From assembly GCF_000012865.1 (NCBI RefSeq), contig NC_007503.1, positions 1,178,001 to 1,242,000 of the forward strand: a DNA stretch of 64,000 nucleotides, in the 5' to 3' direction. This DNA comes from Carboxydothermus hydrogenoformans Z-2901. Its GTDB lineage: Bacteria > Bacillota > Z-2901 > Carboxydothermales > Carboxydothermaceae. Within the stretch, counting starts at the first letter, position 1; each line of letters opens with the position of its first letter. The position numbers and the translations under genes are program-made. Below, in pieces: positions 43,007 to 50,672 of the stretch. The notes below the pieces were generated by a model that saw nothing but the letters and a program-made list of their open reading frames with translations, made no database searches and had not been told where the DNA came from.

Positions 43007-44026
43007 TCAGTTAAGATTTCCTGTTTTTAAAATTTCGTTTTGTAAATTTTTTGGAAATAAAGGGATTATTTCATACACAATAGGCTTTAATACCGCTTGC
43101 CACGCTTCCTTTTCTTCCGGAGTTAAATCATGAATCTTAATATTTTGATCATTTCGAATACGGGCTAAATCTTCAGCATTTTGTTCTAATGCTATTTTTC
43201 TTTGCCAAGCAGTAACTTCCTTTAAGGTGTCTAAAAGGATTTTTCTTGTTTCTTTGTCCAAGCTGTTAAAATAATCCCTGTTCATTAAAACCGCATATCC
43301 TAAGTAACCGTGATTGGAAACAGTTACATGGCTTTGTAGCTGGTAAAACTTTTTGGAGTAGAGATTTGATGGGGTATTTTCACTACCATTTACTTTTTTA
43401 TTTTCTAAAGCTGCAAATACTTCATTAAAGGAGAGGGGCACCGGAATTGCTCCTAATTTTAAAAACTGCTTTTTTAAAATAGGGCTGTCCATAATACGTA
43501 TTTTTAAACCTTGAAAGTCTTTCAAATTTTCTAAAGGCCGGTCAGCGGTAAGAATTTTAAACCCATTATCCCAGTAGGCCAACACTTCTATCCCTTTTTC
43601 TCGCATGCTTTTTCTTAATAGTTCTCCTACCGGCCCATCTGCCAATTGATGCACCTGCTCTAAATCGTTAAAGAAAAACGGAAGATCAAAAACCCCCCAG
43701 CGTTCATCTAATCCAGTTAACTTGGAGGTCGCAGGGGCAATAATCTGGACATACCCCTTTTTCAATGCTTCCAACTCTTCGCCATCTTTATAAAGAGTGC
43801 CATTGGGATAAATTTTCATTTCTATCCGTCCACCACTTCGTTGATAAATCAGATCGGCCCACAGGCGGGCAGCCCGCCCTTTGGGCGAAGCATCGCTTAC
43901 CACGTGAGAAAAGGTTAAAACTATTTTTTCTTTGGGACTCGTCTGTTCAAAATCAATTGCTTTTGGCGCACATCCCTGCAATCCCAAGAAAAGCAAACTT
44001 AAAATTAATAATAAACCTCGCACCAT
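43007..44026 (-). CDS. TRAP transporter substrate-binding protein (DctP-like), second copy
   Basis: 339 residues. A lipoprotein signal ends LLFLGLQGCAPK (cysteine near residue 19). The DctP fold features are FSHVVSDASPKGRAARLWAD near 40 and the LKIRIMDSPILKKQFLKLGAIPVPLSFNEVFAALENKKVNGSENT region near 175-220 (given here as positions; key R at about 177). It would bind a carboxylate outside the membrane and deliver it to DctQM. It lies 82 bases after dctM with a hairpin between, while another binding protein precedes dctQ. The two share the same ligand arginine region but differ overall, so they may widen substrate range. Confidence 0.88.
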   Translation of the reverse strand: MVRGLLLILSLLFLGLQGCAPKAIDFEQTSPKEKIVLTFSHVVSDASPKGRAARLWADLIYQRSGGRIEMKIYPNGTLYKDGEELEALKKGYVQIIAPATSKLTGLDERWGVFDLPFFFNDLEQVHQLADGPVGELLRKSMREKGIEVLAYWDNGFKILTADRPLENLKDFQGLKIRIMDSPILKKQFLKLGAIPVPLSFNEVFAALENKKVNGSENTPSNLYSKKFYQLQSHVTVSNHGYLGYAVLMNRDYFNSLDKETRKILLDTLKEVTAWQRKIALEQNAEDLARIRNDQNIKIHDLTPEEKEAWQAVLKPIVYEIIPLFPKNLQNEILKTGNLN

Positions 44027-44108: not shown

Positions 44109-45404
44109 CTAATCTTTCATTAAGACCCTGGGAATGTACAGGGATATATCCGGCCAAACCATTAGAAGAATCATAACTAAAATCATGATTACAATAAACG
44201 GTATTACCCCTTTTACTACCTCTTCCAATTTTTCCTTGGCCATATTGCTCACCACAAAAAGGTTTAAGCCCACCGGTGGTGTAATCATTGCCAGCTCCAT
44301 GTTTACCGTCATTACTATAGCAAACTGGATTAGGTCAATCCCGAGATGTTTTATCATCGGCAACAAAATCGGTAGCGTAATTAAAGTAATGGAAACTGCT
44401 TCTAAAAAGGTTCCCATGATAAAAAACATTAAGTTTGTTGCCAGAAAGAAAGTAAACTTGGTTAAATTAGCGTTTTTAATCCATTCTCCAACAATATTGG
44501 GAATTTGGTTGGTAACGATAAACAAGCCAAAAACCATCGCAGCAGCTATAACCAAGTAGATCATAGATACGGTATTAATAGTATCTACCAAGATTCCTCT
44601 AATATCTTGGAGTTTTAACTCGCGGTAGATAAAAACCGAAACAAATAAAGCATAAAAAAGCGAAAGCACTGCTGCTTCGGTCGGGGTAACAATACCAGAG
44701 TAAATACTTCCCAGGATAAATACCGGTAAAAACATTCCGGGCAAAGCCTTAACCGTTGCTTTTATCCTTGTCGCCCAGTCCGCTTTTTCAGCTCCTTTAA
44801 AGTTTCCCCTTTTAGCATAAATTATTGCACTTAATACCAGAACCCCCGCCAGGAAAAGCCCCGGCAAAAGGCCGCCCATAAAAAGCTTACCGATACTCTC
44901 TTCCGCGGTAATTCCATAAATTACGAGGGTTACGCTGGGCGGAATTAAAATTCCCAAAGTACCCGCTGCCGCAATAAGTCCCATACTGTATCGTTTGGGA
45001 TAGCCACTTTCCAAAAGTGCCGGCAGCATTATTGAGCCAATTGCTGCTGCTGTAGCCGGACTTGATCCCGAAATTGCCGCAAAAAAAGCACAGGCCAAGA
45101 TTGTAACCACCGACATCCCGCCGGGCAAATGACCAATCCAGGCTTTTAAAGCTTCAATTAAATACCTGGCAATCCCGCCCCGGGACATAATAACCCCGGC
45201 AGCCACAAATGCCGGTATTGCGATTAGGGGCGGGGAAAGAAGGGAAGCAAACATACGCTGCACGATAAAATATAAGGTAAACTTTCCGCTTAAATATAAA
45301 ATAATGACTGCAGCCGTACCCAGGCTTATCGCAATCGGTACGTTTAAAAGAAAAAGCAAGATAAAAATCGCAAATAACAATAACGTTAGAGTTCCTACAT
45401 CCAT
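44109..45404 (-). CDS. dctM: TRAP transporter large permease subunit (DctM)
   Basis: 431 residues with about 12 hydrophobic segments. Family features are LLFLLNVPIAISLG near 17, ASLLSPPLIAIPAFVAAGVIM near 50, AFFAAISGSSPATAAAIGSIM near 107, and IAAAGTLGILIPPSVTLVIYG near 143. It forms the Na+-driven translocation channel for C4-dicarboxylate-type substrates with DctQ. It begins one base after dctQ ends. Upstream sensor kinase and response regulator genes of the CitA/DcuS type, and the fumarase/SDH operon nearby, favour fumarate, malate or succinate as substrate. Confidence 0.93.
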   Translation of the reverse strand: MDVGTLTLLLFAIFILLFLLNVPIAISLGTAAVIILYLSGKFTLYFIVQRMFASLLSPPLIAIPAFVAAGVIMSRGGIARYLIEALKAWIGHLPGGMSVVTILACAFFAAISGSSPATAAAIGSIMLPALLESGYPKRYSMGLIAAAGTLGILIPPSVTLVIYGITAEESIGKLFMGGLLPGLFLAGVLVLSAIIYAKRGNFKGAEKADWATRIKATVKALPGMFLPVFILGSIYSGIVTPTEAAVLSLFYALFVSVFIYRELKLQDIRGILVDTINTVSMIYLVIAAAMVFGLFIVTNQIPNIVGEWIKNANLTKFTFFLATNLMFFIMGTFLEAVSITLITLPILLPMIKHLGIDLIQFAIVMTVNMELAMITPPVGLNLFVVSNMAKEKLEEVVKGVIPFIVIMILVMILLMVWPDISLYIPRVLMKD

Positions 45405-45405
45405 T

Positions 45406-45924
45406 TTACAGCCCCACCTCCTTTGATTGGATCAACTTCTGCCAGGTGTCTTTTTTTAGCAGTAGAAATACTTTTTCAACAAATCTTACCACCATCATAA
45501 AGCCTGATATTGGCAAAACCAGGGATACAATCCAAAGCGGGGTTTGACTGTCTGCCGAACCCTGGCCTAAAACTTTGTAGGTAACTACTAATTTTATACC
45601 GTAAATTAACATTAGAATTGCAAAAAATGCCCCAACTGAATTGGCAAAAATACTTACAATTCGCTTTCCTTTTGGTGAAAGCCGGTCATACAGTATATTT
45701 ACTTTAATATGGTGATCATCACGCAATGCAGTAGCAAAGCCAATCATGGCGCCCCACACTATTAAATACACCGAATATTCGTCTAAAAGGGCTATTGGTT
45801 TACCAAAAACGTAACGCAAAAGCACATTTACAAAAATAAGCGTAAGGCCTGAGTATAAAAGTCCGCCACTTAAGTAATCCTCTAAGCCCTCGTAGATTTT
45901 TATCCATAACGATTTTTCCCGCAA
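45406..45924 (-). CDS. dctQ: TRAP transporter small permease subunit (DctQ)
   Basis: 172 residues with four membrane helices (about 25-45, 55-75, 95-117, 135-157). The LRYVFGKPIALLDEYSVYLIVW segment near 37 (core R and E) and the DDHHIKVNILYDRLSP stretch near 69 are typical of DctQ. The TTG at 45924 is chosen because AAAGGAGG lies nine bases upstream; a longer in-frame reading to 45957 crosses a terminator hairpin. It connects the binding protein to DctM. It is separated from the upstream binding-protein gene by that hairpin. Confidence 0.9.
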   Translation of the reverse strand: MREKSLWIKIYEGLEDYLSGGLLYSGLTLIFVNVLLRYVFGKPIALLDEYSVYLIVWGAMIGFATALRDDHHIKVNILYDRLSPKGKRIVSIFANSVGAFFAILMLIYGIKLVVTYKVLGQGSADSQTPLWIVSLVLPISGFMMVVRFVEKVFLLLKKDTWQKLIQSKEVGL

Positions 45925-45945
45925 AACAATTCCCTCCTTTGTTAG

Positions 45946-45973
45946 TAAAAAGGGCACATCCGTTGATGTGCCC
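45946..45973 (-). terminator. Strong hairpin with T-tract between dctP and dctQ
   Basis: GGGCACATC and GATGTGCCC (arms 45952-45960 and 45965-45973) pair perfectly around CGTT/AACG; on the minus strand TTTTTA follows. It lies inside the transporter operon and may make more binding protein than membrane subunits. Confidence 0.82.
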
Positions 45974-47001
45974 TACTCGGCATTTCTCGCAGCATCCATG
46001 ATCTCTTTACCAATAATTGATTCATATTTTTTATAAAGCGGTTCAAAAACTTTAATGAAAGCCTCCCGGTCCTGTGGAGTTAAATAATAAAACTCAAGCT
46101 TGCCGCTCTTTTTAAGGTTTTCCATGCTTTTCTGGTTTAACTCCGTTGAAAGCTTAATTTCATATTCAGTAGCTTCGGCCAGAGCTTCTTCCAAAGCTTT
46201 TTTAATATCTTCAGGCAGGCTATCCCAGAAGGTCTTATTGGTTAAAACCACATAATCCAGCCGTCCATGACCCGAAACCGTGAGATATTTTTGCACTTCA
46301 GCATACTTTTGGGTATCGATGTTATTAAAAGTATTTTCCTGTCCGTCTACCGTTTTGTTTTGCAGGGCAGTATAAACTTCTCCAAAAGGTATAGTCTGGG
46401 AGCCGGCGCCTAAAAGTTTAAATTGCTCTTCCAAAACACCTCCGGATTGAGTTCTAAATTTAAGCCCTTTAAAATCTTCTGGTCTTCTCAAGGGACGTTT
46501 AGAATTGGTAAAATGCTTTGCCCCGTTTGGCCACCAGGCTAGACCAATGATACCTTTATCCTCCAGGCTTTTTAAAAGCTTTTGACCTGCGGGGCCCTGA
46601 TAAAACTTAAGTGCTGCTTCTTCGCTCTTAAACAAAAAGGGAATATCAACAATTTGAAACTGCGGATTTAAACCTACCAGTTTGGTTACCGAAGGTGCAA
46701 TAAATTGAACGTTATTTGCGATTAACGCTTCTAACTCCTCCTTATCCCCGAAAAGCTGGCTCGATGGATATACTTCCACCTTTACTTTTCCACCGGTTTT
46801 TTGCTCCGCAAGCTCTTTAAATTTTAATGCCGCCTGCCCCTTGGGAGTAGTTTCCGCCACTACGTGGGAAAACTTGATAACAATAGGTTCGGTTTTCTTT
46901 TCCCCTTCCTGTTTGCTTCCGCACGCAACTAACGCAAATACCAAAAACAGGACTAATACGGCAATAAAAATATTTCTGCTAAACTTTAACAACAAAGCCA
47001 C
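45973..47001 (-). CDS. dctP: TRAP transporter substrate-binding protein (DctP)
   Basis: 342 residues. A lipoprotein signal (LVFALVACGSK, cysteine near 27) and the DctP features FSHVVAETTPKGQAALKFKE near 44, VEVYPSSQLFGDKEELEAL near 76, and FRTQSGGVLEEQFKLLGAG near 182 with the ligand-binding arginine. GTG at 47001 is very close to AAGGGGG; TTG codons three and four positions on are possible starts. It is first in the dctPQM operon and lies about 90 bases after the response regulator. Expected substrate: a C4-dicarboxylate. Confidence 0.92.
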   Translation of the reverse strand: MALLLKFSRNIFIAVLVLFLVFALVACGSKQEGEKKTEPIVIKFSHVVAETTPKGQAALKFKELAEQKTGGKVKVEVYPSSQLFGDKEELEALIANNVQFIAPSVTKLVGLNPQFQIVDIPFLFKSEEAALKFYQGPAGQKLLKSLEDKGIIGLAWWPNGAKHFTNSKRPLRRPEDFKGLKFRTQSGGVLEEQFKLLGAGSQTIPFGEVYTALQNKTVDGQENTFNNIDTQKYAEVQKYLTVSGHGRLDYVVLTNKTFWDSLPEDIKKALEEALAEATEYEIKLSTELNQKSMENLKKSGKLEFYYLTPQDREAFIKVFEPLYKKYESIIGKEIMDAARNAE

Positions 47002-47090: not shown

Positions 47091-47753
47091 TCAGCGAAGA
47101 TAATAATAATTTACCGGTCTGCCAATACTACCATATCGTATTTCCTTTCCGGCAAGACCTTCCCTTTCTAAGTATTCCAGGTATCTTCGGGCCGTGACCC
47201 GCGATATTCCTGCTCTTTTGGCCACTTCCGCTGCTGCCAGCGGTTCCCTTGTTTCTTCCAAAAGAGACAAAATCTTTTTTAAAGTAATATCATTAAGCCC
47301 CTTCGGAAGCTCACCCCCAGCACTTGATCTGGCAAAAAGACGGTCAATATCTTCCTGTTGAACACTTCTCTTCCGGCCTATTTTTAAATATTTATTTTTA
47401 TAGGTTAAAAGTGCTTTTACAAGCCGCTCTTTTTTGAAAGGCTTGATAATATAATCTACCACACCGTACCGCAATAATTCAGCTACTATTTCTCCTTGCT
47501 GAGCTGCAGTTATGGCCAGCACATCCACCGAAATATTTTGCCGGCGAATTTCCTTTAACAATGTTAAACCGTCAATATCGGGAAGGTAAATATCCAGGAT
47601 GAGAAGTTCTGGAGAGTGGTTTTTTAAAAAGTTTAAAAGTTCACTACCGCTTTTAAGAGCTGCAATTATTTCAAAACCTTCTACTTCCTTTATAAAATTC
47701 TTATTTATCTCCAGGACCATGGGGTCATCTTCAACGATAACCGTTTTAATCAT
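47091..47753 (-). CDS. CitB/DcuR-family response regulator
   Basis: 220 residues. The receiver domain (1-120) has VIVEDDPM at residue 5, the phospho-acceptor aspartate in LLILDIYLPD near 54, and the KPF lysine near 103. The C-terminal part (about 160-220) is a winged helix with AAAEVAKRAGISRVTARRYL, as in CitB and DcuR. ATG 47753 follows TAGGAGGTG; an in-frame GTG at 47762 overlaps that site. It overlaps the kinase gene by eight bases and probably activates the downstream TRAP operon in response to an external di- or tricarboxylate. Confidence 0.92.
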   Translation of the reverse strand: MIKTVIVEDDPMVLEINKNFIKEVEGFEIIAALKSGSELLNFLKNHSPELLILDIYLPDIDGLTLLKEIRRQNISVDVLAITAAQQGEIVAELLRYGVVDYIIKPFKKERLVKALLTYKNKYLKIGRKRSVQQEDIDRLFARSSAGGELPKGLNDITLKKILSLLEETREPLAAAEVAKRAGISRVTARRYLEYLEREGLAGKEIRYGSIGRPVNYYYLR

Positions 47754-49324
47754 TTTTCTCACCTCCTACTTTGATTAAAAAAACGGTTCCTTTGGAAGTT
47801 GATCTAATTCTAATTTTGCCATAAACATCCTCTAAATGCCTTTTTACAATGTAAAGTCCATAACCACGATTTTCCCCTTTTGTAGAATACCCTGGCTCAA
47901 AGATTTTATTTTTTTCAACTTTTATTCCCGGCCCTGTATCAAGTACAAGAAGAAAAAATCTTCTTTTATTCGCCTGGATTTTAAGATAAACCTTTTTTAT
48001 TTTTCCTGATACCGCCGCTTCCAGGGCATTTTCCAGAATGTTGCCGGTAATCTCAATGACTTTGGTACTGTCAAGTTTGGCAGGATATCCTTCAACAAAA
48101 CTTCGCCGATTAACCAAAAATTCTACCTTTAATTCCGATGCCCTGGCGGCTTTCCCCAAAATAAGCCCGGCCAGAGCCGGGTCCTTAATTTTTTTTGTTA
48201 AAAATGTTGTAAGCGCCTGTTGCGTGTCCGTCAAACGAAAAATTAGGTCCAACGCTTCGTCCACCCTACCCAGTTGAATAAGACCGGCAATAGAATGAAG
48301 ACGGTTTAAGTTTTCATGGTTCTGAACCCTTAATGCTTCGACAAACTTTTTTACTCCGGTCAATTCTTCCGCTAATTTTTGGACCTCACTTTTTTCCCGA
48401 AAGACTGCAACCGCACCTATAACCTTACCCTTAACCTTTAAGGGCAACCGGCTGGAAATTAACTGCTTGCCGCCTACAAAAATTTCACGATTATACACCG
48501 GTTGCCCCGTTGCCATCACTTCAGGAAGCCTGCTTTCAGGGGCAACTTCTCCGATATTTTTACCCAATACCTCTTCTTGCCGGAGATTTAAAATAACTTG
48601 AGCCGCCGGATTTACCAGGGTAATATTCCCCATCCGATCGATAGCCACTATTCCTTCGTTAATGGTATTTAAGAGAGCATCCCGCTGTTCCACAAGACTG
48701 GCAATTTCTTCCGGTTCTAACCCCAGAATTTCCTTTTTTATTTTTACCGCTAAAAAACCTGCCCCTATTGCTCCAATAAATAAACCCAAAAGAGTTGCTA
48801 AGTATATTCCTTCCCGGACACTTTTTAAAAGCTCCCACCAGGTAGGAAGCAGTATTCCCACCACCACAACCCCAATTTGCTCTGTAAAAGATTCATTTTT
48901 GACAGGAACAAAAGCCCTAACCGCTATCCCCCTTATTCCTTTTGCCTCAGAAATATATTCGTTATCGGCAAAAGCCGGCCCTTCATCTCCTCCGGAAAAT
49001 TTTGAGCCTACCCTTTCCGGAAGAGGACTGGAATAGCGTATACGATTCATATCCAGTACAACTATATAATCAACATTGGTCGCCCGGCGTATTCTTTCAG
49101 CTACCGGTTCAATCTCCTTAAAACCTTCCGGCCTGCCCAGGTATTTTTTAACTGTAGGGTTTTCCGCTACCGTCCTACCAATTGCCAGGGCCCGCTTGCC
49201 GAGTTCCTTTTTTAATTCCACCGCTGCTTTATAGGTAAGAAAGAATCCTGAAAAAAAAAACCGAAAAAGCTGCAACCGTAAAAGCTAATAAGGTTATTTT
49301 TGTTGCAAGTTTAAATCTCCTCAT
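47746..49324 (-). CDS. CitA/DcuS-family sensor histidine kinase with an apparent frameshift in a 10-base homopolymer
   Basis: The main frame encodes a periplasmic PDC-type sensor (about 30-145), a second membrane helix near 165-185, a PAS domain near 205-310, the phospho-accepting histidine in VQNHENLNRLHSIAG and an ATPase domain with ILENALEAA, DTGPGIK and GYGLYIVKRHL. The natural start, ATG 49324, encodes MRRFKLATKITLLAFTVAAF, a plausible first membrane helix. It runs out of frame at a run of ten A on the plus strand (49251-49260); nine would join the two parts exactly. In the main frame the only start is a TTG at 49275 without a ribosome site. Sequencing error, transcriptional slippage or phase variation are all possible. 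Confidence 0.85.
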
Positions 49325-49417
49325 TATTCTTCCCTCAATATTTTTTAATTTAGAGTTTAAAATTCGTTAGAAAATTTAAAATTCCTTGTGACTATAAGAT
49401 TCACTTAGATTAACGCA

Positions 49418-49446
49418 TAAAAAAGCGACCCCTTTAGGAGCCGCTT
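49418..49446 (-). terminator. Terminator after malic enzyme
   Basis: Read on the minus strand, AAGCGGCTCC pairs with GGGGTCGCTT (two G-T pairs) around TAAA and is followed by TTTTT. It overlaps the malic enzyme stop and ends the fumarase-SDH operon. Confidence 0.85.
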
Positions 49447-50672
49447 TTTTCCAAAAGTTCAAGGGTATGTTTAAAGACATCATCCGGGCTTATCTTAATT
49501 CTTGCTATTCCTTCCTCTAAAGCCGCTTTTGCCACTTCGCGAGCAACTGTTGATGCAACTCTTGCATCGAAAGCTTTGGGTAAAATATAATCTTCATTAA
49601 GCTCATTTTCGGCAACCAAAGAACTTATAGCATAACTTGCTGCTATTTTCATCTTTTCGGAGATATCTGTCGCCCTTACATCCAATGCACCCCGGAAAAC
49701 TCCCGGGAATGCCAAAACATTATTTACTTGATTGGGGAAATCGGAGCGACCGGTAGCTACAATCCTGGCCCCCGCTCTTTTCGCTTCATCGGGGTAGATT
49801 TCCGGTTCTGGATTGGCCATAGCAAAGACAATTGCATCTTTATTCATTGACTTAACCATTTCTTCCGTTACTTGTTTTGCTTTGGAAAGTCCAATAAAAA
49901 CATCTGCTCCCTTTAAAGCATCCTTAAGGGTTCCTTTAATATTTTCAGGGTTAGTGATTTGGGCTAATTCTTCTTTGTATTTATTCATTCCTTCTTGACG
50001 GCCCCGGTAAATAATTCCCTTACTATCACACATTATTAAATTTTTTACTCCGCTTGCCATAATAAGCTTGGAAACTGCAGTCGCTGAAGCCCCTGCACCA
50101 TTGACCACTACTTTAATCTTTGAAATATCTTTATTAACTATTTTTAACGCATTTATTAGAGCCGCCAGGGTAACAATAGCGGTTCCATGCTGGTCATCAT
50201 GAAAAATGGGAATGGATGTTTCTTTCTTTAATCGCTCTTCGATGTAAAAACAATTAGGTGCTGCGATATCTTCTAAATTAATCCCTCCAAAAGTAGGCTC
50301 TAAAAGTTTTACTACCTCGACAATTTTATCCGGATCTTTGGTATCAAGGCAAATTGGGAAGGCATCAACCCCGGCAAATTCTTTAAAGAGGAGTGCCTTA
50401 CCTTCCATTACAGGCATGGCGGCATAAGGTCCAATATCTCCTAATCCTAAAACTGCAGTACCGTCGGACACTACCGCCACCATATTCCAGCGGCTGGTAT
50501 ACTCATATGACAAATCCTTATTTTCAGCAATTAACTTACAGGGCTCTGCAACTCCAGGGGTATAGGCTAAAGATAAGTCTTCCGCAGTTTTAGCAGGTAC
50601 TTTCGACTTTACTTCAATTTTTCCGCGAAATTTCTTGTGTAATTCTAAAGCTTTAGCTTTAAAATCTGCCAT
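49434..50672 (-). CDS. NAD(P)-dependent malic enzyme
   Basis: 412 residues, the short bacterial form. The N-terminal domain has YTPGVAEPCKLIAENK near 32, the tyrosine and lysine that act in catalysis; metal-site GGINLEDIAAPNCF near 130 and HDDQHGTAIV near 158; and the NAD fold with VVNGAGASATAVSKLI near 190. It oxidatively decarboxylates malate to pyruvate. As the last gene of the fumarase-SDH operon it links fumarate-derived malate to pyruvate. AAAGGAGG precedes the ATG; the gene starts 23 bases after sdhB. Confidence 0.95.
   Translation of the reverse strand: MADFKAKALELHKKFRGKIEVKSKVPAKTAEDLSLAYTPGVAEPCKLIAENKDLSYEYTSRWNMVAVVSDGTAVLGLGDIGPYAAMPVMEGKALLFKEFAGVDAFPICLDTKDPDKIVEVVKLLEPTFGGINLEDIAAPNCFYIEERLKKETSIPIFHDDQHGTAIVTLAALINALKIVNKDISKIKVVVNGAGASATAVSKLIMASGVKNLIMCDSKGIIYRGRQEGMNKYKEELAQITNPENIKGTLKDALKGADVFIGLSKAKQVTEEMVKSMNKDAIVFAMANPEPEIYPDEAKRAGARIVATGRSDFPNQVNNVLAFPGVFRGALDVRATDISEKMKIAASYAISSLVAENELNEDYILPKAFDARVASTVAREVAKAALEEGIARIKISPDDVFKHTLELLEKSGS

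Follow-up and report, generated by a model that had tools for sequence, protein, structure and literature searches.

A ten-base T-run breaks the reading frame of a DcuS/MalK-like sensor kinase gene in Carboxydothermus hydrogenoformans, most likely through a recent slippage mutation or a sequencing error

Genes put out of frame at A or T homopolymers have been described in several bacteria. Baranov et al. 2005 (PMC1088944) used the term "pseudo pseudogenes" for genes with a frameshift at a slippage-prone run whose product is perhaps still made, and they demand conservation in homologues before slippage is regarded as programmed. Thermus dnaX, as summarized in a review, is a case of slippage at nine bases. 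The E. coli reporter study PMC6260861 describes rescue of a T8 run by deletion at about 10% and a rescue at poly(T) that grows with the length of the run. A transcriptome-wide analysis (PMC5574713) reports that deletions are rare at homopolymers, where insertions are the rule. In C. jejuni, according to PMC3930126, A/T tracts switch flgR, flgS is phase-variable too, and reversible ON/OFF variants were observed. Here we describe a T-run in a sensor kinase gene of C. hydrogenoformans and compare it with these systems. The window, i.e., the whole stretch of DNA analyzed, comprises 64,000 nucleotides (chromosome positions 1178001-1242000) of a 2,401,520 bp genome assembled as one contig. The comparison covered three genomes, one per species: C. 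hydrogenoformans, C. islandicus (94% identity to C. hydrogenoformans), and G002, taken to be C. pertinax (80% identity). The features of the locus are as follows, in window coordinates and with the basis of each assignment in parentheses.

49434-50672, minus strand: malic enzyme gene, which precedes the kinase (open reading frame and profile match)
49329-49336, minus strand: ribosome-binding site GAGGGAAG preceding ATG 49324, identical in both congeners (sequence comparison)
49229-49324, minus strand: upstream frame from ATG 49324, 31 residues that include the first membrane helix, ended by a premature stop (open reading frame; conserved with the two congeners)
49251-49260, minus strand: T10 run (A10 on the plus strand), site of the frame break (sequence; interrupted in C. 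islandicus and G002)
47746-49251, minus strand: kinase frame after the run, with sCache_3_2, PAS, SPOB_a, and HATPase_c (Pfam domains; matches to DcuS and CitA domains of solved structure)
47091-47762, minus strand: response regulator, DcuR/DpiA-like (domain and family profile matches)
44109-47001, minus strand: TRAP transporter genes dctP, dctQ, and dctM (open reading frames and profile matches)

The four kinase domains all score above their Pfam cut-offs, a CitA/DcuS-type make-up, and the sCache_3_2-PAS-SPOB_a-HATPase layout is that of the DcuS/MalK/CitA sensor kinases. The gene order (malic enzyme, kinase, regulator, DctPQM transporter) also resembles these systems in its DcuR/DpiA-like partner and its TRAP transporter and malic enzyme neighbors. 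The best NCBIfam match of the kinase is DcuS/MalK (PRK11086) at 454.5 bits, which is under the curated cut-off of 520. The intact kinases of the congeners likewise fall below this cut-off (465.7 and 451.7 bits), so that all three differ from the curated DcuS/MalK family in this respect. Judged by its domains and neighbors, the protein appears DcuS/MalK-like, and a match under the PRK11086 cut-off does not settle its substrate or exact subfamily. No back-up paralogue was found: the sCache_3_2 profile PF17203 matches once in the whole genome. A second gene for a DctP-type solute-binding protein follows dctM in the window (43007-44026). The sole DctP relative found past the kinase and regulator genes of G002 is 40% identical to the first DctP of the window, and that genome may lack the first dctPQM set.

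The first-pass annotation of this DNA had proposed that a ten-base A-tract at 49251-49260 throws the kinase out of frame and that the frame entering from ATG 49324 supplies the missing first membrane helix before breaking at the homopolymer. Both proposals were confirmed. Translation from ATG 49324 on the minus strand gives MRRFKLATKITLLAFTVAAFSVFFFRILSYL followed by a stop, 31 residues in all, and the kinase frame immediately past the T10 run reads SGFFLTYKAAVEL. The view that the two frames belong together was borne out by the congeners, in each of which (2/2) the kinase gene is a single open frame with the same ATG and the same ribosome-binding site. Across the junction C. islandicus reads MKFKLATKITLLAFTVAAFSVFLSGFFLTYKAAVEL and G002 reads MKLKLATKIEVLALIIVAFSVLFSGFFLAYKVAGEL, each in one frame. 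Therefore, the two frames found here are one ancestral gene.

The kinase might still be made from a start in its own frame, either TTG 49275, the start of the listed 509-amino acid open frame (47746-49275, minus strand), or GTG 49221 by reinitiation past the upstream stop. Both codons lie in the kinase frame and the sCache domain starts downstream of them. However, the annotation's remark that this frame lacks a credible start holds: TTG 49275 has no ribosome-binding match and GTG 49221 has one of just 3 nt. The conserved ATG 49324 has a GAGG match 8 nt ahead of it. The next in-frame start after GTG 49221 is ATG 49050, which is already within the Cache domain. Furthermore, the helix would be truncated, with a best 19-residue hydropathy of 1.10 from the TTG start versus 2.12 in C. 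islandicus. The starts within the kinase frame are poor, and expression from them is very improbable. A promoter and terminator scan of 49200-49500 returned no match; a hairpin was seen by eye 3' of the malic enzyme gene.

The T-run is broken by other bases in both congeners, and among the three genomes it is long and pure solely in C. hydrogenoformans. This distribution bears on each of the described systems. As in the pseudo pseudogenes of PMC1088944, the frame breaks at a run of at least nine A or T (here T10), which the frameshift has lengthened into the slippage-prone range; in the homologues (2/2 congeners) one uninterrupted frame encodes the product, and the normal product may come from slipped transcripts. 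The difference is that most of the cases described there have nine As, whereas ten Ts are present here and deletion-type slippage would be required. A leaky rescue of the kinase by RNA-polymerase slippage is plausible from the E. coli reporter data of PMC6260861. A programmed slippage, in which the run is kept to set a low kinase level, could draw on the same precedents, since the PMC6260861 reporters indicate that bacterial RNA polymerase can slip on T-runs and Thermus dnaX does so at nine bases. Nonetheless, the split-frame arrangement is not conserved in either congener, which is the conservation that Baranov et al. (PMC1088944) ask for, and we consider this the least probable of all the readings.

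The annotation had also suggested that the kinase may be switched by phase variation, i.e., that reversible changes in run length turn it on and off in the population. The resemblance to C. jejuni FlgR/FlgS is that a two-component regulatory gene is out of frame through a change in the length of an A/T homopolymer, and pure A-tracts in a set of promoter-like elements of this genus, described below, do differ in length between copies. The difference is that reversible variants are reported for the C. jejuni genes (PMC3930126), while the tract studied here is not conserved. Its interruption in 2/2 congeners leaves the suggestion unsupported, and runs of this length are kept out of the other genes of this chromosome. 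Phase variation of the kinase is thus improbable. A young contingency switch, in which changes in T-run length would turn the sole sCache_3_2 dicarboxylate sensor of a free-living CO-oxidizing thermophile on and off, with a low basal supply from RNA-polymerase slippage while it is off, is likewise hard to credit, and even a little more so.

Long A/T runs were then considered over the window and the chromosome. Dinucleotide shuffling of the window gives a mean of 13.6 A/T runs of ten, but the window has just the one at 49251-49260; such runs are therefore depleted in it rather than enriched. The chromosome has 14 A/T runs of at least ten bases, collapsed from 56 overlapping matches. By reading of the open-frame maps, one of the 14, the kinase tract, lies inside a gene, and three others sit just ahead of likely starts. 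The chance of finding at most one of 14 in genes is 9e-9 to 1e-12 for an assumed coding fraction of 0.80-0.90. These results indicate that A/T runs of at least ten bases have been purged from genes in this chromosome. The chromosome also contains an A20 and an A19 (781050-781069 and 904837-904855) in stretches without a convincing gene, and an A17 (1769407-1769423) that adjoins an inverted repeat; by eye, its other strand resembles an intrinsic terminator whose T tail is unusually long.

The kinase tract is the longest A/T run placed in any gene here, where an error would be likeliest, and a sequencing or assembly error, with the true run in frame and the kinase normal, has to be weighed seriously. 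General homopolymer sloppiness of the assembly was looked for and was not seen. Runs of exactly nine numbered 47 among the matches listed (100 of 118 overlapping places, with some further runs outside the list), and ten of these 47 are located deep (120 nt or more) within continuous open frames of 250 codons or longer. Five pairs of open reading frames flank 9-runs, and in none do the two halves have a Pfam family in common, although in two of the pairs the second member is without a Pfam match; they look like separate genes. Finally, 48 of the 95 C. islandicus open frames given had a good match, and four of the 48, the kinase being one, were split over frames. The three other splits were judged to be antisense or alternate-frame readings and were dropped: two of these frames are on the plus strand, facing minus-strand genes, and in the third the second piece lies outside the DctM frame. 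This leaves the kinase as the sole gene split with respect to the syntenic C. islandicus contig. The reverse comparison found no split in the 49 window frames with a good match (of 82). The 9-runs in continuous frames and the single syntenic split indicate that homopolymers are not a general weakness of the assembly, although the same data fit a single error.

Codons past the run show no sign of decay. Their dN/dS is 0.076 against C. islandicus, and the pairwise values of the neighbors are 0.105 for the regulator and 0.049 for the malic enzyme. Polarized silent to replacement changes are 37:12 on the C. hydrogenoformans branch and 42:10 on the C. islandicus branch (Fisher p 0.63). Purifying selection acts on the kinase codons past the run just as it does in the sister species, and the gene is undecayed. 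A long-standing pseudogene was rejected on these grounds, there being no relaxed selection past the run. It follows that the frameshift is recent or a sequencing error, an undecayed gene being what an error predicts. With the homopolymer checks set against it, we regard the error as a serious possibility that falls somewhat short of even.

The frame break is thus most likely not a built-in switch but either an ordinary slippage mutation of recent date, which may be leaky, or a sequencing error. Of these, we lean slightly towards a recent change in the length of the T-run in the sole sCache_3_2 kinase. As the congener comparison indicates, base changes on the C. hydrogenoformans lineage would first have made the run long and pure, and replication slippage may then have changed its length. 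Standard decoding from the conserved ATG now stops after 31 residues. If full-length kinase is made at all, its source would be a small share of transcripts in which RNA polymerase has slipped on U10. Because rescue would come at most from these transcripts, the allele would be a null, perhaps a leaky one, rather than an evolved switch. Rescue of the frame would need deletion-type slippage and, given the rarity of deletions at homopolymers reported in PMC5574713, it may be slight. In a literature search on the organism and genus, no paper treating this kinase gene was found, as judged by titles and the beginnings of abstracts.

A real frameshift would mean that the sensor of a malate/fumarate-type uptake system is damaged in the sequenced strain, and tests of dicarboxylate use in that strain would then not represent the genus. 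If slippage rescues the kinase, annotation as a plain pseudogene could be wrong; if the break is a sequencing error, the reference annotation needs correcting. Whichever reading holds, the mechanism has already been described in other bacteria.

Outside the window, two near-identical promoter-like elements were observed at chromosome positions 1690611-1690642 and 1692591-1692628 (minus strand), with long A/T runs (1690623-1690637 and 1692604-1692622) within them. Their layout is TTGAC, an A-tract, a short GC-containing stretch, TATAGT, and then the palindrome GGAATGCATTCC. C. hydrogenoformans has two copies, G002 four, and C. islandicus two relatives, and the copies precede different genes, several of which, by reading, have signal-peptide-like starts. 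The spacing from the TTGACA-like sequence to TATAGT is 20 and 26 in C. hydrogenoformans and 14, 15, 15, and 19 in G002; one C. islandicus element has an interrupted tract and a spacing of 18 (hand count), and the other is without the upstream part. Sorted by tract, the spacings are 14, 15, 15, 20, and 26 for pure tracts and 18 and 19 for the two interrupted ones. Pure A-tracts in these elements vary in length and interrupted ones do not, which is the pattern expected of spacer-length phase variation in a promoter family. On this sequence pattern, the elements are a candidate promoter family with a phase-variable spacer length, and they may deserve more attention than the kinase tract.
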